DNA of 43,601 bases from a virus: positions 1-43,601 of the IMG/VR virus record IMGVR_UViG_3300042007_000120; one strand, given 5' to 3'. This document shows positions 8,219 to 19,013 of the stretch, piece after piece. Under the pieces are notes generated by a model. The model made no database searches, was not told the DNA's origin, and saw nothing but the letters and a program-made list of their open reading frames with translations. Every line of letters starts with the position of its first letter. The first letter of the stretch is position 1. A program made the translations under genes and the position numbers.

Positions 8219-8666
8219 TGGAGGCGTTCCGTTCCATGCTCAGTTTGTTCTCCGCCGCCGGGGTCAGCCCGTACTCGGCGCACCAGCTGCGGAACTCCTG
8301 CCCGTACTCCCTCTCAATCCGCACCCACGAGGCGGTGACCACGCCTTGGCTGTTCTTCGTCAGCAGCCCGTACTGGCGGCGCTGCCGCACCGCCTGCCGC
8401 CACACCGCGAAGACCTCGCAGGCGATTTCGAGGCTGGCCTGATCCAGCGGCTTCAAAATCCCCACCGTGCTCATCTGCTCCACGATGTGGTCCCAGAGGG
8501 CACTGGCGTCGGGGGACATGTCGCGGGGCTTCTGCAGCGCCCCGCGGTTGAACGGGATGTCGGGGGGCACCAGACGGCCGCCCGAATCGCGGCCGGGCCC
8601 GGTGCCCGCCAACAGCTTCAGATTCCGTGGTGCCGCCTTCCTGCCCTTACTCGCCGTCGCCGCCAT
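8178..8666 (-). CDS. terS: Terminase small subunit, P27-like
   Basis: 162 aa from ATG 8666, which lies nine bases after GGAGG; an ATG six bases earlier (8672) is also possible. It recognises the packaging site and loads the large subunit. The N-terminus (GRKAAPRNLKLLAGTGPGRD) is basic and matches the start of P27-family small terminases, followed by helices (LDQASLEIACEVFAVWRQAV). It overlaps both neighbours and precedes the large subunit. Confidence 0.88.
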   Translation of the reverse strand: MAATASKGRKAAPRNLKLLAGTGPGRDSGGRLVPPDIPFNRGALQKPRDMSPDASALWDHIVEQMSTVGILKPLDQASLEIACEVFAVWRQAVRQRRQYGLLTKNSQGVVTASWVRIEREYGQEFRSWCAEYGLTPAAENKLSMERNASNVGQEAISSNPFA

Positions 8667-10119
8667 CGCCATTCACCTCCACCGCATCCAGCGCTTCGAG
8701 GCTGGCCTGCGTCTCCACACCGCTCATCCGCGCCGCCGCCGCCCGCCTATCGCCCTTCAGGAAAACCAGCACGTCCTGATGGGTGCGGCAGAGGGCGCGG
8801 GTGGCGGTGAACGCCCGGGCGGCACGCAGCCGGGCGGTGCCGATGGCGGTGATGAGCATGGCGTCGTTCTCCAGCCACAGCCCCGCCTCGTGCGCGGCGC
8901 GGACCATGAGGGAACGCATGTCCATCAGGTGCCCCGCCTTGTTGCGGACAGCGCCGACGATGAACACCGCGTAGCTGTTCGGCCGCAGCCGCCCGGCCGC
9001 GTGGCGGATGTTCTCGACCATCGCGGCCTCGAAGTCGCCATGGGAGAGGTTGGACAGGTCCCGGGGGTCGTCGCTGTACACCTCTAGGTCGTAGTACGGC
9101 GGGCAGCCCAAAATCATGTCGAACGCCTCGGCGGGCAGCTGTTGCAGCTGCTCGGACGATTCGCCGACGATCCACTCAGGGGCAGGCTCCCCGGCGATGG
9201 CGAGCTGCAGCCGGTTCGCCGCCACCTGTTCCTCCCGCAACTCGACCCCGGTGTAGGGGCGGCCGAGGCGGGAGGCGACGATGCCGCGGACGCTGCCGCC
9301 CGCCCACGGGTCGAGGACGTGGCCGCCGGGCGGGCAGTACCACCTGTACATCAGCTCAGTCAGCACAGGGTCGAAGATGCTGGTGCCGGTGCTGCCGTAC
9401 GGCAGCAGCCGGTCCCCGTGCTGCTCCACGATCTCCTTGTCGGTCAGCGCACGCCCCGCCGCGGCCTCCGCCTCGTTCTTCACCGGGTACCAGTTCGCGA
9501 ACTGGCTGGTCGGGGCGTCGTAGACGAGGTTCCCGTCCCGGCCGAGTTCTGATTGGATGCCGAGGTCCTTCCACGCCTGCTTCCGTGCCCGCCAAGGTCC
9601 CTGCCGGGCGTCGAGGACGGTGAAGGGCGGGGCACCGAAGCGCTCGGCCAGCGCCCCGTTCGACTGCGTGCCGCCCGGGGCGGTGCCTAGGGCATCCTGC
9701 GTCTCCCGTGCCATGCGTTCGAGGAACGATTCGTCGTACCCGGTGCCCGTCAGCTGCGGCAGGCTCTGCAACAGCTCCTGCAGCGCATCCTCGTCATAGA
9801 TCGCCAGATCGTTCGTCCGGTTATCGACGAGCACTATACGGGCCGCCTCATCATCGTCGACGTCGACGAAGGTGACGGCGATGGACTTCCAGCCCAGCAC
9901 GTCCCGCGCCGCCTTCAGCGTGTGGTTCCCGGCAAGGACCTCGTTGGTGCCTGCGCGGACGGTGATGGGCTTGTACTGGCCGTTAACCCGGAGGGATTCG
10001 GCGATGGCGTCCACGTCGCCGAGGCGCGGGTTCCGCCCGTAGTGCTGCAGCCCGTCGACGGGGACGATCAGCTTCTCCAGCGTGGAGTGAATGTTGTGTG
10101 TTTCGTGTGCAGTGTCCAT
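8647..10119 (-). CDS. ParB-domain DNA methyltransferase (N6/N4 type)
   Basis: 490 aa, ATG at 10119 with AAGGAA upstream. Residues about 1-110 are a ParB/Srx-like domain (PVDGLQHYGRNPRLGDVDAIAESL, then TNEVLAGNHTLKAA). The second half is an amino-methyltransferase with a SAM-binding loop DPWAGGSVRGIVA, the GVELREEQVAANR segment, and the catalytic CPPYYDLE motif (a DPPY-class variant with Cys first). Such ParB-MTase fusions are common next to phage terminase genes and probably modify phage DNA against host restriction. It is not the partition ParB. The upstream 133 bases are repeat-rich. Confidence 0.9.
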   Translation of the reverse strand: MDTAHETHNIHSTLEKLIVPVDGLQHYGRNPRLGDVDAIAESLRVNGQYKPITVRAGTNEVLAGNHTLKAARDVLGWKSIAVTFVDVDDDEAARIVLVDNRTNDLAIYDEDALQELLQSLPQLTGTGYDESFLERMARETQDALGTAPGGTQSNGALAERFGAPPFTVLDARQGPWRARKQAWKDLGIQSELGRDGNLVYDAPTSQFANWYPVKNEAEAAAGRALTDKEIVEQHGDRLLPYGSTGTSIFDPVLTELMYRWYCPPGGHVLDPWAGGSVRGIVASRLGRPYTGVELREEQVAANRLQLAIAGEPAPEWIVGESSEQLQQLPAEAFDMILGCPPYYDLEVYSDDPRDLSNLSHGDFEAAMVENIRHAAGRLRPNSYAVFIVGAVRNKAGHLMDMRSLMVRAAHEAGLWLENDAMLITAIGTARLRAARAFTATRALCRTHQDVLVFLKGDRRAAAARMSGVETQASLEALDAVEVNGDGGDGE

Positions 10120-12113: not shown

Positions 12114-13184
12114 TTACGTTTGGTGGGCGTGGAGCATGGCGGTGAGGGCGGCCTGCGCCTGCAGGGGCACCACCCCGTCGCCGCAGACTTTGAGCTGCTG
12201 GTTGCGGGTGAGCCCTATGGCGGGGTCGGTGACCCACCCGTCGGGCAGCCCCATCATCCACTCGGTGAAGCGGGGGCTTAGGCGCTCTGCCCGTACCCGT
12301 CCAGTAGGCTCGGTTGGTCGTGGCGCGGGGCGGCCGGTGACGTGTTCCCATCTGCGGATGGCTTGGGTGTAGGGGCCCCAGTCTGTAGGAGGTGTTCCAC
12401 CTCGTCCGCCAGTGTCGGCCCGTGCCCGCCCGCTTTCCGTTTGTCGGGGTGCTGGGAGCCGCCGTTGCTGGCCAGTTGTGTCGTCGGGGTGCGCAGCAGC
12501 AGCCGTTCGCTGGGGTCCAGCCCCATCAGGGTCACTATCTGGTTGGTGAGGAAGACCTGCCCGGTGGTGAGCCTGCGGGCGACGCCCATGGTGTTCGACG
12601 GTTTCCGGCCTTCGGCCGCTACTGGTGTTTTGAGCAAGGAGGAAGACCCGGTATCGGGGGTGGCACGCCCCCACGTCGGCAGCGCGTAGGCCGCGCCATT
12701 GCGCGTCATACCCGAGGTCGGCCAGATCGCCGAGTACGCGACCGAGTGCTCGCAGAGCAGGCTGGCCTGCGTCCCGGGTATTTCCCATGCATCGCGGGCA
12801 CTGTTCCAGATTGCTATCGGCTCGGGCACTGTACGCTCCTCTGACGTTTTCCCAGACCACCCATTGGGGGCGGTGGGTTGCTATGGCTTCGCGCATCTGC
12901 ACCCACAGGTTTGAGCGGGTGCCTTCCGTCATGCCTGCCCGCTGCCCGGCGTGGGAGAGGTCTTGGCAGGGGGTGCCGCCGCTGATGATGTCGGGGCTGG
13001 GGATGGCCGCCCAGTCGATGGCGGTGATGTCCCCGTAGTTGGGGACGTGCGGGTAGTGGTGGGCGAGGATGCGGGCGGGTGCGGGGTCGTTTTCGCAGAA
13101 CCCGATGGTGGTGGCTCCGAGGGCGGCTTCGACGGCGAGGCCGAGGCCGTTGTACCCGGCGCAGAGTTCGAGGGTGGTCAGCAT
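12114..13184 (-). CDS. C5-cytosine DNA methyltransferase
   Basis: 356 aa, ATG at 13184. Conserved motifs are in order: SAM loop ELCAGYNGLGLAVEAALG (I), GFCENDPAPARIL (II), SGGTPCQDLSHAGQ with catalytic Cys (IV), WVVWENVRGAYS (VI), GACHPRYRVFLLAQ (VIII). The C-terminal part has RLSPRFTEWMMGLPDGWV and KVCGDGVVPLQA (motif X). Motif X normally reads GNGV; Asp replaces Asn here. The region between motifs VIII and X is Arg/Pro/His-rich and shares its DNA with a nested gene. It probably modifies phage DNA or blocks restriction. Confidence 0.92.
   Translation of the reverse strand: MLTTLELCAGYNGLGLAVEAALGATTIGFCENDPAPARILAHHYPHVPNYGDITAIDWAAIPSPDIISGGTPCQDLSHAGQRAGMTEGTRSNLWVQMREAIATHRPQWVVWENVRGAYSARADSNLEQCPRCMGNTRDAGQPALRALGRVLGDLADLGYDAQWRGLRAADVGACHPRYRVFLLAQNTSSGRRPETVEHHGRRPQAHHRAGLPHQPDSDPDGAGPQRTAAAAHPDDTTGQQRRLPAPRQTESGRARADTGGRGGTPPTDWGPYTQAIRRWEHVTGRPAPRPTEPTGRVRAERLSPRFTEWMMGLPDGWVTDPAIGLTRNQQLKVCGDGVVPLQAQAALTAMLHAHQT
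12278..12829 (-). CDS. Nested gene in a second frame of the methyltransferase (TP-repeat protein)
   Basis: 183 aa, GTG at 12829 preceded by GAGGAG with a six-base spacer, a strong site inside the methyltransferase coding region. The whole gene lies within that gene in another frame. The product looks like a real protein: IWPTSGMTRNGAAYALPTWG, LLKTPVAAEG and LLLRTPTTQLASNGG repeats, then QHPDKRKAGGHGPTLADEV. I recall similar LL(P/K)TP repeat proteins near phage cytosine methyltransferases, function unknown. The alternative is that such database entries are out-of-frame readings of methyltransferases. The strong ribosome-binding site favours true translation. Confidence 0.55.
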   Translation of the reverse strand: MPEPIAIWNSARDAWEIPGTQASLLCEHSVAYSAIWPTSGMTRNGAAYALPTWGRATPDTGSSSLLKTPVAAEGRKPSNTMGVARRLTTGQVFLTNQIVTLMGLDPSERLLLRTPTTQLASNGGSQHPDKRKAGGHGPTLADEVEHLLQTGAPTPKPSADGNTSPAAPRHDQPSLLDGYGQSA

Positions 13185-13186
13185 GG

Positions 13187-13786
13187 CTAGGCCCGCATGT
13201 TGGTGTTGAGCCATTCCCATTCGTGCAGCGGCCACGCCGGGCGGCCGCGCCACCAGAGGCCGCATTGGGCGGGGCTGGGGTTGCACCCGTCGTGTTCGCA
13301 GACGACGGCGGGCTGCTGGTGGTGTTCGGGCCCTATGAGGCGGATGCGGAGGCCGGGGCGGTGGCACCACGGGCAGTCGGTGCGGAGCAGCTGCCCGTCG
13401 GGGTTTTCGGCGAACTGTTCGGTCATGCGGGCGCGGATGCGGTGGATGGTGTGTTCGGCGCGGGCCTGCAGCAGTTCGGGGGTGTGGGGGTGGCGGGCGG
13501 TGATGTAGCGCAGCTGCGGCCCGGGGTGCTGCGTGGGTTTGGGGGGGTGTTCATCGAGGGTGTGGGCGATGGTGTTGGCGAGGTTGCGGGTGGTGGTGGT
13601 GATGCGGTGGATGAGGTCGAGGGTGTCGAGGTCGAGGGGGGCTGGTGTGGTGTCTTCTGCCGTGCTGGGCTGCCCGGGCCCGGTTTGTTGCCGCCATGGG
13701 CGGGGTGTGCCGGGTTCGCGGTAGTCGAGGAGGTCTGCCCAGCGGCGGATGATCCATTGGGCGTCGGCTGCGATGTCGTACCTCAT
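13187..13786 (-). CDS. Hypothetical protein with a C-terminal zinc-finger-like segment
   Basis: 199 aa, ATG at 13786 in an ATGA overlap with the 24-aa gene upstream. The N-terminus is helix-rich (ADAQWIIRRWADLLDY). The C-terminal third has CPWCHRPG and CEHDGCNPSPAQCG, two Cys pairs that could bind zinc, followed by WWRGRPAWPLHEWEWL. The DNA-binding or regulatory role often suggested for such proteins is only inference. It sits in the replication/modification operon before the C5 methyltransferase. Confidence 0.75.
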   Translation of the reverse strand: MRYDIAADAQWIIRRWADLLDYREPGTPRPWRQQTGPGQPSTAEDTTPAPLDLDTLDLIHRITTTTRNLANTIAHTLDEHPPKPTQHPGPQLRYITARHPHTPELLQARAEHTIHRIRARMTEQFAENPDGQLLRTDCPWCHRPGLRIRLIGPEHHQQPAVVCEHDGCNPSPAQCGLWWRGRPAWPLHEWEWLNTNMRA

Positions 13787-14934: not shown

Positions 14935-16575
14935 TCACGGCTTTTTCCGGTTCACGAACAGCTCGACCAGCCAGTGGAAGAAGCGCAGCAGCACCCCCGC
15001 CTCGGTGTCCGCGCCGGGGGGTTCCGGGCCCGGTTCGGGGCCCGGTTGGGGTGCCGGTGCGGCGGGCCCCGGGTAGAGCCAGCCGAGGTCGATGGGGGAG
15101 CAGGCGGTGTTGTTGCCGGGGACGTTTTTGTGCAGGATGGGGGTGAGTTCCCGGCCGTAGTGCTTCTCCAGCAGCGCGTCGAGGGCGAGGACGTTGGCGG
15201 CGATTTTGGCGGCGGTTTCGGTGGGTGTGCCGTCCGGTTTGCGGTCGCAGATGCGCGGGTCGATTTCGGTGCCGATGCTGTCGTTCCCGCCGGGCCCGGC
15301 GTGGTAGGCGCGGTCGGTGAGCCCTACGGTTTGCGCGACCCGGTTCTCGCCGATTTGGAAGTGCGGGGATTTGTAACTGCCCTCCCGCGCCCATTCGCCT
15401 AACGGGCTGGTGAAGGGGATGGGGGGGGTGCCCCACCAGTGATGAACGTGGAGGGGGGGCTGGGCGGGGAAGTTCCCGGTGTCGACGTTGCTGCTGTGGG
15501 CGGGGTGTTTTTCGACGGGGATGCCGTTGATGAACTGGAAGGCGAGGGTGAAGTCGTAGGCGGGCACCGGGGGCGGGGGCGGGGCTGGCGCGGTGGTGAG
15601 GTCGGGTAGTTCCCCGGGCCCGGGCTGGGTGAGGGCCCCTGCCCAGACGTACCCTGCGGTGTATTTGCCGACGAACCAGATGTCTGTTTCGCCCGGGTAG
15701 GGGGCGGTGGCGTGGATGTAGCCTTTGAAGTCCAGTACCCGGTCGGGGACGTAGGTGTTGACGACCGCCCCGTTTTTGTCGGGGGCGGCGCGTAGGATCG
15801 CCCCGTGGGGGCCTGTGAGGCGCTGGTGGGGCTGCAGCGGCGTCTCGGCCGGGTTGAGGTCGGGCAGGCCCGCGGTGCTGGGGTCGGTGAACAGCTGGGA
15901 CCATGCGTAGCCTTGTTCGTCTTTGAACCACACGTCTGAGCGGGTGGTGCCGCTGGTGACGGGTTCGCCGTGGACCCAGCCGGTGAACGCCCATGTTTGG
16001 TCGATGGTGGCGAGGACGGGGGCTGTGGTGCTGGGCTGGGCGCGGAGGTTGATGTTCACCCCGTCGGGGTCCCGCCAGTTGGCTTGGCGGGGCGCTGCCG
16101 GGGTCACGTCCTGCGGGGGTGCGGTGTCGAAGTTGGGGCGGCACCAGCCGATCACGGGGCCCGTGGTTGGGGAGTCGTAGGGCAGCCAGCCTTCGAACAC
16201 GGGGCATTGGAGGAACCCGTCCTGCTGCAGCACCCGCATCCCGGTGGTGTCGGCGGCGAGGACGACGGCGACGTGCCCCCACGGGTTGACCCCCCATTCG
16301 GGCGTGCCGGCGAACACCACGAAGTCGCCGCGGGCGGGGACCTGCCCGGGGTCGGCGGGGTTGTTTTGGATTTTGTGCCAGTAGTAGGGGTCGGGCCCCC
16401 ACAGCAGGTCTTCGGCGTTCCCCCAGCCGACGCACTGCTGCCATGGGACTCCGAAGATCGCCTCCCCGTACGCCTGTATGGTGTCGACGCATTGGAAGCC
16501 GTGCACGTTGTCGGGGTTGACGTAGGTGCCGGGGATGCGCCGGAACCAGTCTTCTTGAAGCTGCAGGGTGCTCAT
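14935..16575 (-). CDS. Endolysin: CHAP, SH3-like repeats and amidase_2
   Basis: 546 aa, ATG at 16575 overlapping the primase-helicase stop (ATGA). It should degrade host peptidoglycan at lysis. Residues about 15-155 form a CHAP domain with Cys29 (HGFQCVDT) and His in NPWGHVAVVL. The middle has two SH3-like segments (VNINLRAQPSTTAPVLATI and LTGPHGAILRAAPDKNGAVV). The C-terminal part is an N-acetylmuramoyl-L-alanine amidase_2 domain: VHHWWG, YHAGPGGNDSIGTEID, and HKNVPGNNTACSPIDLGW. It ends with a hydrophobic segment LLRFFHWLVELFV. Two catalytic domains are typical of some actinophage lysins. It lies in the replication operon, far from the holin candidates. Confidence 0.92.
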   Translation of the reverse strand: MSTLQLQEDWFRRIPGTYVNPDNVHGFQCVDTIQAYGEAIFGVPWQQCVGWGNAEDLLWGPDPYYWHKIQNNPADPGQVPARGDFVVFAGTPEWGVNPWGHVAVVLAADTTGMRVLQQDGFLQCPVFEGWLPYDSPTTGPVIGWCRPNFDTAPPQDVTPAAPRQANWRDPDGVNINLRAQPSTTAPVLATIDQTWAFTGWVHGEPVTSGTTRSDVWFKDEQGYAWSQLFTDPSTAGLPDLNPAETPLQPHQRLTGPHGAILRAAPDKNGAVVNTYVPDRVLDFKGYIHATAPYPGETDIWFVGKYTAGYVWAGALTQPGPGELPDLTTAPAPPPPPVPAYDFTLAFQFINGIPVEKHPAHSSNVDTGNFPAQPPLHVHHWWGTPPIPFTSPLGEWAREGSYKSPHFQIGENRVAQTVGLTDRAYHAGPGGNDSIGTEIDPRICDRKPDGTPTETAAKIAANVLALDALLEKHYGRELTPILHKNVPGNNTACSPIDLGWLYPGPAAPAPQPGPEPGPEPPGADTEAGVLLRFFHWLVELFVNRKKP

Positions 16576-19013
16576 TGGTTGCTCCAGTGCTCGGGCGGTT
16601 CGGGGTCGTTGGCGAAGACGGTGATGCCGGTGTAGTAGCGGTGCCCGTTGGAGCGGGTTTGGGCGACGCCGTGGCGGAGGCGGAGGTCGCGGCCGAACTG
16701 CTGGGGGGTGAGTTCCTGCTCGCCCTGCTCCCTGCACCACTGCGCGTATTCGCGGCGCATGTGGGCGGTGTTGATGCGGAAGGCGGTGGCGGGGCCCAGC
16801 TGGCAGCGGTCGGTGATGAAGCGGGCGAGGGCGTCTTCTTCTTCGGCGTAGGCGCTGGTGGCGGCGAGGACGCTGGCGGGTTCTTTGAGGCCGTGCCGGT
16901 GGAGGGCGACCGCGCCCTGCACCACCCAGTTGAGGATGCCGGGGCCTTCGGCGGCGATGAGGGTTTGGGCGAGGTTTTCGATCCGCTCGTCCTCGCTGAT
17001 GGTGTGGGTGAAGGGGATGAGGCGCAGCCTGCGCCAGAACGATTCGCCGCCTGCGCCGACGGCGGGCTGGTGGTTGCCCATGAGGATGAGGGTGTGGGTG
17101 GGGGTGAAGGTGAAGTGGTTTTGGTGCATGTAGCGGGCGGTGAGCCTGTCGCCGCCGGTGAGGAGCTTGGTTTTGGCTTCGTCGAAGCGGGCCCCTTGGT
17201 TGACTTCTGAGCAGGCGACGAGGCGCATGCCTGTGAGGCGGGCGATTTCGGTTTCGTGGTGTTCGCGGCCTGCCATGAGGAACCCGGCGGGGGCGGTGGT
17301 GGCGTAGTCGCCGAGGATGGCGATGAGGACGTCGAGGGCGACTGATTTGCCGTTCCCGCCGGGCCCGAAGAGGAAGGGGAGGATGTGGTGGGTGACCTGC
17401 CCGGTGGCTGCGTACCCGGCGAGGCGTTGGAAGTAGCCGGTGAGTTCGGGGTCGCCGTTGAAGGTGGTGTGGAGGAATTTTTCCCAGCCGGGGCAGCCCG
17501 CGTCCGGCTCGTACGGGGCGGCTGTGCGTTTGGTGTGCAGCTTCGCCGGGTCCGCCGGGCTGCGTTCCCCGGTGGTGAGGTTGATGATCCCGGCGGGGGT
17601 GTTGAGTTCGTAGGGGCGGGCGTCGAGCTGGTCCATGCTGACCCGGATGCGGGGGTCGCGGCGGGTGAGGGCGACGGCGGCTTCGATGCCGCGGCGGGAG
17701 AGGCTGCGGCGGATGTGGTTGTACACGGCCTCCTTCCCCTCGTCGTCGATTGCTTCGATGGTTTCCCAGCAGTGTTGTGTGACGGGCCCGTCGTCCTCCT
17801 GCCACGCCCACCGTGTCCCGTCCCACTGCAGCCACGCGCCGCGGGCGGGGGAGTACCTGGTGGTTTGCCCGTGCCGGTTGATGAGCAGTTCGGCGTTGCC
17901 GTGGTCGGTGAGGGTGACGTTGGTGGTGGTGGCGGGGAGGGGGTGCACGGTGGCGAGGGCCGCGGTGCCCACGGCTGCGGGCTCCGCGGGGGTGAAGGGT
18001 TTGAGGCGGATGACGTTGGCGGGCGCGGTGCCGGGGTCCCCGTACCCCTCGGCGCGGAGGGCGGCGGCGGCGGCCCGGTGGTCCCCGCCGTGGTGCAGTA
18101 CCGCGTAGGCACCGAATTTTGTGTACGCCCGCTCCGGGTCGAACTCGGTGCTGGAGGTGAAGACGTAGAGCCGGTCCCGGTCCTCGGCGTACCCGGTGGT
18201 CGCCGACTGCCCGGTGCTTTTGCCGGGCCTTCTCCAGTAGGTGGTGCGCCCTGCGGTGTACAGCCGCACCCACCCGGCGGGTTCGAGGATTTCTTCCCAT
18301 GTGACGGCGGCCTCGTACGCGTCGCCGGGGGACATGCCGCCGTCACGGCGGGGCTGCGCCCGGTCCCACTGCTGCGCCGGTTCGGGTGTTTGTTCGGTGA
18401 GGGTGGCGAGGATGGCGTGGAAGTCCTCCCGGTCGCCGGGGGTGAGGGTGGGGATGGTGGCGGGGCCCCCGGCGAGCCGGGCCCAGCGGCCGCCTGCGGG
18501 GTGCACGGTGCCGTTGGAGGGGGCGACGACGCTGTAGCCGCCTTCGCCCCGGGTCTCGGCAAGGACCTGCAGCCGGGCCTTCGGGCTGTGCAGCAGCTCG
18601 TCCGGGGTGCTGGGGCGGGTCGCGAGTTTCGTGTTCCCGGGCACGGGCCCGGCGAGGCGGTAGAACCAGTGGATGCCGCCGGAGGGGGTGTGTTCGATCC
18701 AGCCGGTGTTCAGCGCGTCCCACAGGTCGAGGTTCCCGGCGGCTTTGGCGACGTCGCGGAGGTGGGGGACGCGCCCGGCGGCCCGGCCTTCGATTTCGGC
18801 CATTTCGAGGCCGCCGCTGATGTGCCCGGTGACGATGCCGAGGCCGGGCCCGGGCTGGGTGAACCATGCGCGGGCCTGTTCGGGGTCGGCCCGGCGGTTC
18901 TGGTATTGCTTCCACGCCCCCATGGGCTGTTTGGTCCCGTCGGGGCGGACGGGGAGGATGCTGATGCCGTGCTGCAGCAGTTCCAGCGCTGTGTCGAGCA
19001 GCAGGTTGCTCAT
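16572..19013 (-). CDS. Primase-polymerase/helicase (D5/P4-like)
   Basis: 813 aa, ATG at 19013 in an ATGA overlap with the preceding gene. It probably primes and unwinds phage DNA. Residues about 1-210 form an AEP-type prim-pol domain (GISILPVRPDGTKQP, GLGIVTGHISGG, TPSGGIHWFY). The usual D-x-D pair appears as EMAEIEG. A D5 N-like region is followed by a superfamily 3 helicase core: Walker A GPGGNGKS near residue 550, ACSEVNQGARFDEAKTKLLTGGDRLTARYMHQ, then HTLILMGNHQPAV. The C-terminus has a winged-helix-like segment (LTPQQFGRDLRLRHG). Length is normal for the family. Confidence 0.93.
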   Translation of the reverse strand: MSNLLLDTALELLQHGISILPVRPDGTKQPMGAWKQYQNRRADPEQARAWFTQPGPGLGIVTGHISGGLEMAEIEGRAAGRVPHLRDVAKAAGNLDLWDALNTGWIEHTPSGGIHWFYRLAGPVPGNTKLATRPSTPDELLHSPKARLQVLAETRGEGGYSVVAPSNGTVHPAGGRWARLAGGPATIPTLTPGDREDFHAILATLTEQTPEPAQQWDRAQPRRDGGMSPGDAYEAAVTWEEILEPAGWVRLYTAGRTTYWRRPGKSTGQSATTGYAEDRDRLYVFTSSTEFDPERAYTKFGAYAVLHHGGDHRAAAAALRAEGYGDPGTAPANVIRLKPFTPAEPAAVGTAALATVHPLPATTTNVTLTDHGNAELLINRHGQTTRYSPARGAWLQWDGTRWAWQEDDGPVTQHCWETIEAIDDEGKEAVYNHIRRSLSRRGIEAAVALTRRDPRIRVSMDQLDARPYELNTPAGIINLTTGERSPADPAKLHTKRTAAPYEPDAGCPGWEKFLHTTFNGDPELTGYFQRLAGYAATGQVTHHILPFLFGPGGNGKSVALDVLIAILGDYATTAPAGFLMAGREHHETEIARLTGMRLVACSEVNQGARFDEAKTKLLTGGDRLTARYMHQNHFTFTPTHTLILMGNHQPAVGAGGESFWRRLRLIPFTHTISEDERIENLAQTLIAAEGPGILNWVVQGAVALHRHGLKEPASVLAATSAYAEEEDALARFITDRCQLGPATAFRINTAHMRREYAQWCREQGEQELTPQQFGRDLRLRHGVAQTRSNGHRYYTGITVFANDPEPPEHWSNQ

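Follow-up and report, generated by a model that had tools for sequence, protein, structure and literature searches.

Locus and overlapping reading frames

The window, meaning the whole stretch of 43,601 nucleotides that was analysed, is a 43.6-kb virus record carrying terminase, portal, head, RusA, HNH and tail genes. The locus described here is composed of two genes on the complementary strand: a C5 cytosine DNA methyltransferase ORF, referred to as alpha, and a shorter ORF, referred to as beta, which is nested within it in the +1 frame (Table 1). The geometry of the nested ORF is as given in the original prediction, that is 183 codons from a GTG start, preceded by GAGGAG and a six-base spacer, with the stop ending at 12278 and the whole ORF lying inside the methyltransferase ORF. 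The latter was listed as 12114-13370, but alignments of homologues begin at the ATG at 13184, which is likely to be the true alpha start rather than 13370. Alpha carries the PF00145 motifs, including PCQ (motif IV) and ENV (motif VI), which identify a C5 cytosine DNA methyltransferase.

Table 1. Position of the alpha and beta chains and of their sequence features in the window.
Feature	Position	Strand	Description	Evidence
Alpha chain, C5 cytosine methyltransferase ORF	12114..13184	-	Motifs I-VIII and IX-X	PF00145 E=1e-30, phrog_363 E=3e-71
Alpha motifs I-VIII, catalytic part	12630..13181	-	PCQ and ENV in translation	tblastn blocks in 140 loci
Alpha linker	12396..12629	-	Arg/Pro/His-rich shadow of the nested gene	Open, no amino-acid constraint visible
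Alpha motifs IX-X	12117..12395	-	RLSPRFTEWMMGLPDGW; QLKVCGDGVVP	Matches C-terminus of phrog_1008 and phrog_363
Beta chain, nested gene	12278..12829	-	183 codons, GTG start at 12829, +1 frame	phrog_1008 E=6e-15, selection tests
Shine-Dalgarno of nested gene	12836..12841	-	GAGGAG	Six-base spacer to GTG
Beta N-terminal domain	12659..12829	-	W..ARDAWE...WPTSGMTRNGAAYALPTW; co-encoded with alpha segment ending in motif VIII	Dual-frame constraint
Beta L-x-TP module 1	12497..12634	-	LKTPVAAEGRKPSNTMGV..., module family 9	Module clustering
Beta L-x-TP module 2	12386..12496	-	LRTPTTQLASNGGSQHPDKRKAGGHGPTLADEVEHL, module family 1	Module clustering; nested-frame selection
Beta C-terminal tail	12299..12316	-	QPSLLD, sliding-clamp-motif-like	Q-[LPMQ]-[NSTDM]-[LIFM] excess in type-A tails

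Motif X of alpha in the window (within 12117-12395) reads CGDGVVP, while most relatives have GNGVVP (Asn to Asp); one beta among the homologues (locus L031) likewise has GDGVVP in its motif X. Two other ORFs of the window were noted. In the ORF at 8647-10119, residues 14-148 form a ParB-like domain and a further part is a DNA methyltransferase-type domain of phrog_498, so that the phage carries a second methyltransferase-like gene. The ORF at 14935-18300 encodes 1121 amino acids, of which the second half matches the amidase/endolysin family phrog_7470 and the first approximately 575 residues are without match.

Homologues and distribution of the motifs

The nested protein matches profile positions 71-208 of phrog_1008 (E=6e-15) with its N-terminal and module region, and the C-terminal part of the same profile (199-320) matches the C-terminus of the methyltransferase of the same window locus. 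This split match indicates that in the phrog_1008 phages the nested-frame domain is fused in frame to motifs IX-X. The phrog_1008 family ("DNA methyltransferase", actinophage gene 2) is a direct homologue of beta; its proteins run on into IX-X, whereas the window beta ends before reading IX-X in frame.

The nested protein was found by tblastn in 180 phage records, and scans for it yielded 80 virus loci and 53 bacterial loci. A homologous protein is present in the +1 frame of 140 related loci, and its conservation extends over numerous phages and over bacteria of several phyla. With few exceptions the offset of the nested frame from motifs I-VIII is +1, and in nearly all loci the beta homologue occurs together with a C5 methyltransferase. 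The loci were gathered by searches with the nested protein and not by openness of the alpha frame.

Two layouts account for these loci, the counts including 12 phage records read after the scans. In type A, the layout of the window, motifs I-VIII and IX-X are in one ORF and beta is nested within it (90 loci); a few type-A loci also carry modules in the alpha frame. In type B, alpha stops soon after motif VIII and beta continues into motifs IX-X (50 loci). The tree of motifs I-VIII requires 7-9 switches between the two. Phage Jinkies, a close homologue with a nested identity of 62%, is type B, and the alpha IX-X block of the window corresponds in it to the nested-frame block; MidnightRain, the sister of Jinkies, belongs to type A.

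A third layout, type C, was reached via a weak match in a Microcystis phage. Here alpha carries motifs I-VIII and X; motif IX belongs to a nested +1 beta, which shares the N-terminal signature of the other betas and also has TP modules. Type C was also found in a Vibrio phage, in plasmids of Acinetobacter and Leptospira, in Methylorubrum and in an environmental podovirus. A Megaera plasmid found among these wider relatives has the type-A layout. Among the best 80 of at least 600 virus-contig relatives, 72 were of type C with beta at +1; the alpha frame ran open through beta in 59 of 76, where 1.3 would be expected. Judged from these matches and from its motif content, beta and the second chain of split C5 methyltransferases are homologues.

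Some loci show further arrangements. Two prophage-like loci (L095 and L128) contain tandem methyltransferase-like units, in which a module-bearing beta-like ORF stands beside a further alpha/beta pair. In one type-B locus (L035, 2417-3748) a tail of the type-A kind, QLSLDE, is encoded in a third frame, at +1 relative to the frame of IX-X; this may be the remnant of a frame change. As to the deposited annotation of phage loci (L135-L146 and L228), mostly one chain only is annotated, or beta is started after its conserved N-terminus; in Jinkies beta is the only chain annotated and motifs I-VIII are left without annotation.

Selection and start signals of the nested gene

Openness of the nested frame is not significant when taken alone (P 0.1-0.3). 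When codons were redrawn among synonyms so that the methyltransferase protein stayed unchanged, the +1 frame was open over the nested stretch in 11-30% of draws, as would suit a chance ORF arising as a by-product of GC-rich coding. The significance of the nested gene comes from its conservation across homologues and from its start signal.

In a module block of 34 codons, pairwise differences at nested codon positions 1, 2 and 3 were 0.111, 0.085 and 0.431 in 57 type-A sequences, and 0.114, 0.091 and 0.496 in 28 type-B sequences. As nested position 3 is position 1 of the main frame, the methyltransferase frame adds no visible amino-acid constraint in this block, and its codons are under purifying selection in the nested frame. 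A conserved recognition domain between motifs VIII and IX is absent from alpha, where the stretch follows the constraint of the nested frame only. The N-terminal block, which lies over the segment leading into motif VIII, is constrained in both frames (0.243, 0.362 and 0.247; 0.218, 0.190 and 0.503 for the motif-IV control). Constraint in both frames, the comparison suggested along with the original prediction, is thus found in the N-terminal block, and constraint in the nested frame only in the module block. Two points of that prediction need correction. The overlap extends beyond the variable region between motifs VIII and IX, since the first approximately 60 nested codons cover a conserved segment ending in motif VIII, and the picture of a recognition part that tolerated overprinting at a late stage looks wrong: it is the nested frame that seems to carry the recognition modules, with the methyltransferase frame as its passive shadow.

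Mean identity of the nested protein to that of the window was 0.53 over 104 loci, compared to 0.29 when the partners were recoded synonymously. Out of 55 type-A loci, 32 have an ATG or GTG with a strong Shine-Dalgarno sequence in the correct place (0.8 expected), and 47 have a nested start with any 4-mer core of the Shine-Dalgarno sequence (4.7 expected). The homologues were also inspected for nested-frame stop codons in loci keeping the methyltransferase, a pattern that would have spoken against a gene, and this pattern was not found.

The METHYLTRANSFERASE frame (alpha) is open across the nested region in 89 of 89 type-A loci, where 15.3 are expected if the nested protein is held fixed, and in none of the 90 loci whose alpha frame contains motifs IX-X is there a stop ahead of these motifs. 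In type B, where alpha need not reach IX-X, it is open across beta in only 3 of 50 loci. Both frames are therefore selected for read-through in type A, and the alpha linker is kept open while being otherwise a shadow of beta. The open alpha frame excludes decay, and it speaks against a double frameshift as the sole route.

The claim of a real overlapping gene is strongly supported by this combination of nested-frame selection, conserved start and Shine-Dalgarno signals and alpha openness, and the nested ORF is almost certainly a gene as judged from the sequence. A chance ORF, or the remnant of a split gene broken by frameshift decay, has a negligible probability; selection in the nested frame, the conserved start signal, the alpha frame open in 89 loci and the conserved tail motif described below refute it as far as sequence can.

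The same data bear on programmed frameshifting, in which a +1 shift after motif VIII would fuse I-VIII to the modules, and in type B also to IX-X, the internal start being minor or unused. In favour of this explanation, the offset between the two frames is +1 throughout, and the fusion product of type B would be a complete enzyme. We regard it as improbable, because start and strong Shine-Dalgarno sequence are conserved far beyond chance, the nested N-terminal domain is itself selected although it lies upstream of any useful shift point, and 41 of 65 type-A loci have a nested-frame stop soon upstream of the start. A shift in type A would moreover lose motifs IX-X, and inspection by eye of module junctions in a Streptomyces prophage clade did not reveal a canonical slippery site.

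L-x-TP modules

In single-chain C5 enzymes the target-recognition domain is located between motifs VIII and IX. Clustering showed that the L-x-TP repeats fall into module families which the loci have in common. Several of the largest families are present in the type-A nested frame, in the type-A main frame and in type B; one family counts 17, 17 and 11 copies, respectively. The third codon position of a module is variable in whichever frame encodes it. Two loci with 92% identity in motifs I-VIII, L129 of type A and L134 of type B, share the module order 1-4-3-2, but the nested frame holds only module 1 in L129 and all four in L134. In some loci (L044, L063, L101 and L144) modules lie inside alpha itself, in its own frame, between motifs VIII and IX.

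Exchangeable modules in the position between VIII and IX, common to loci and frames, make it probable on the strength of these arrangements that the L-x-TP modules are target-recognition cassettes, and target recognition is likely to be a function of beta. The original prediction, according to which the nested product perhaps changes methyltransferase specificity, pointed in the right direction and was too weak, since the product looks like an integral specificity subunit and not like a modifier. A role against host defence, also proposed there, would follow only if methylation protects the phage from restriction.

Searches with beta in Pfam, NCBIfam and PDB sequences gave nothing useful. In the structure prediction of beta the module region has low confidence, and Foldseek with the predicted model gave no significant structural match. 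The model of the fused homologue of L063 superposes on M.HhaI at Z 26, its linker/module stretch 193-253 having a pLDDT below 50. Modules are present in both chains at some loci, an arrangement that a simple division into a catalytic and a specificity chain leaves unexplained.

C-terminal tail of beta

In type A the beta tails at the motif IX region often read QPSLLD (window), QLNLLD, QLTIEA or QLTFGD. The pattern Q-[LPMQ]-[NSTDM]-[LIFM] occurs in 17 of 33 type-A tails reaching this region, where 0.65 are expected from synonymous recoding of alpha; the pattern is loose and was picked after viewing the tails, which somewhat flatters an excess whose size is far beyond such an effect. Among type-B controls, taken in the same relative frame where no such gene is present, it occurs in 1 of 22. 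We take tails of the QPSLLD type to resemble the sliding-clamp-binding peptides of bacteria (QLxLF-like), and binding of the clamp by the beta tail is a tentative suggestion from this resemblance. MidnightRain has a clamp gene two genes upstream.

A C-terminal tail motif of its own, together with the absence of motifs IX and X from type-A beta, would also suit a real protein that is independent of the methyltransferase and merely shares its DNA, such as an anti-restriction or accessory protein. This is unlikely, since beta homologues are joined in one chain with IX-X or with IX of the same methyltransferase, the same modules are found in frame inside alpha, and the protein is found only alongside a C5 methyltransferase in nearly all loci. 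The nested product is very probably a subunit of the same methyltransferase, as far as can be read from these fusions and modules.

Comparison with known systems

The small chain of the two-polypeptide C5 methyltransferase M.EcoHK31I is reportedly encoded in an alternative frame inside the gene of the large chain, and beta of the window is likewise a second chain overlapping in another frame under selection. In M.EcoHK31I (YGGCCR) the larger chain carries motifs I-VIII and X and the smaller chain motif IX (PMC3404938). The type-C relatives divide the motifs in the same manner; the window differs in having both IX and X in alpha, and its beta has only the N-terminal domain, the L-x-TP modules and the tail. 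The recognition domain of M.EcoHK31I is predicted in the larger chain (PMC3404938), which counts against a recognition role of beta.

In the two-subunit M.AquI (CYCGRG) alpha carries motifs I-VIII, and beta part of the variable region and IX-X (PMC3404938). Its split resembles that of type B, whereas the window keeps IX-X in alpha and has a nested beta, unlike the beta of M.AquI which is mostly downstream.

The multispecific C5 methyltransferases of Bacillus subtilis phages have arrays of exchangeable target-recognition modules between motifs VIII and IX; a 1987 paper on them is cited in PMC4081073. The likeness to the modules described here is drawn from the layout as module arrays, and the modules of the window family are mostly in the other frame and chain.

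Split or two-chain C5 methyltransferases are already known, as is a hidden out-of-frame HNH ORF in an actinophage methylase: the methylase gene of phage ShiLan contains an out-of-frame GTG ORF encoding an HNH endonuclease, with the host frame open (PMC11855218). A hidden homing endonuclease of this kind would give the window the same formal layout. It is hardly credible here, as no HNH or other nuclease match was found for beta in Pfam, PHROGs and NCBIfam, and beta is not a removable insertion because its N-terminus is co-encoded with conserved alpha sequence. The ORF of ShiLan is a mobile HNH insertion, while the window beta is similar to a core subunit. A literature search reaching few of the subscription journals found no published description of the nested family, its motif distribution, its frame-switching modules or its breadth.

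A proposed two-chain methyltransferase read in two frames

We propose, with a probability of roughly 0.78, that a single stretch of DNA at this locus encodes, through its two frames, both chains of a two-chain C5 cytosine DNA methyltransferase. Besides the selection on both frames and the conserved start, this reading is based on the continuity of beta with motifs IX-X, seen in 50 type-B loci and in phrog_1008, on the identity of the type-C motif split with that stated for the two-polypeptide M.EcoHK31I, and on the occurrence of the module families in both frames with 7-9 layout switches on the alpha tree. It is supported by the superposition of the fused L063 model on M.HhaI, and by fragment complementation of M.SssI, which works best with a C-terminal fragment starting between motif VIII and the recognition domain (PMC3404938).

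Alpha would supply the SAM-binding and catalytic motifs I-VIII, here also IX-X, with a linker of freely variable residues between the two parts. Beta would be initiated independently in the +1 frame at a GTG six bases after an internal GAGGAG ribosome-binding site, and would consist of the conserved N-terminal domain followed by the L-x-TP modules as likely target-recognition cassettes. It is predicted to bind alpha, completing the DNA-binding side of the enzyme, with the modules recognising DNA. One transcript would in this way give matched catalytic and specificity chains. The enzyme may protect phage DNA against host restriction, and the QPSLLD tail may bind the sliding clamp.

A wider proposal, which we consider rather doubtful, is a class of dual-frame methyltransferases spanning phyla, each gene of which would code for the catalytic chain and, at +1, for the specificity chain. 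In this class cassettes and motifs IX-X would move between frames by small indels or recombination, and the clamp-binding tail of the window type would tie methylation to replication.

The locus represents a long and widely conserved same-strand overlapping gene inside a commoner annotated phage gene, and database records largely miss the beta/alpha pair. If beta is the specificity chain, many annotations of "complete" C5 methyltransferases would concern alpha subunits only, and both the prediction of specificity and the expression of single genes would be misled. The repeated switching of motifs IX-X and modules documents, as few natural cases do, how parts of proteins pass from one overlapping frame to another.
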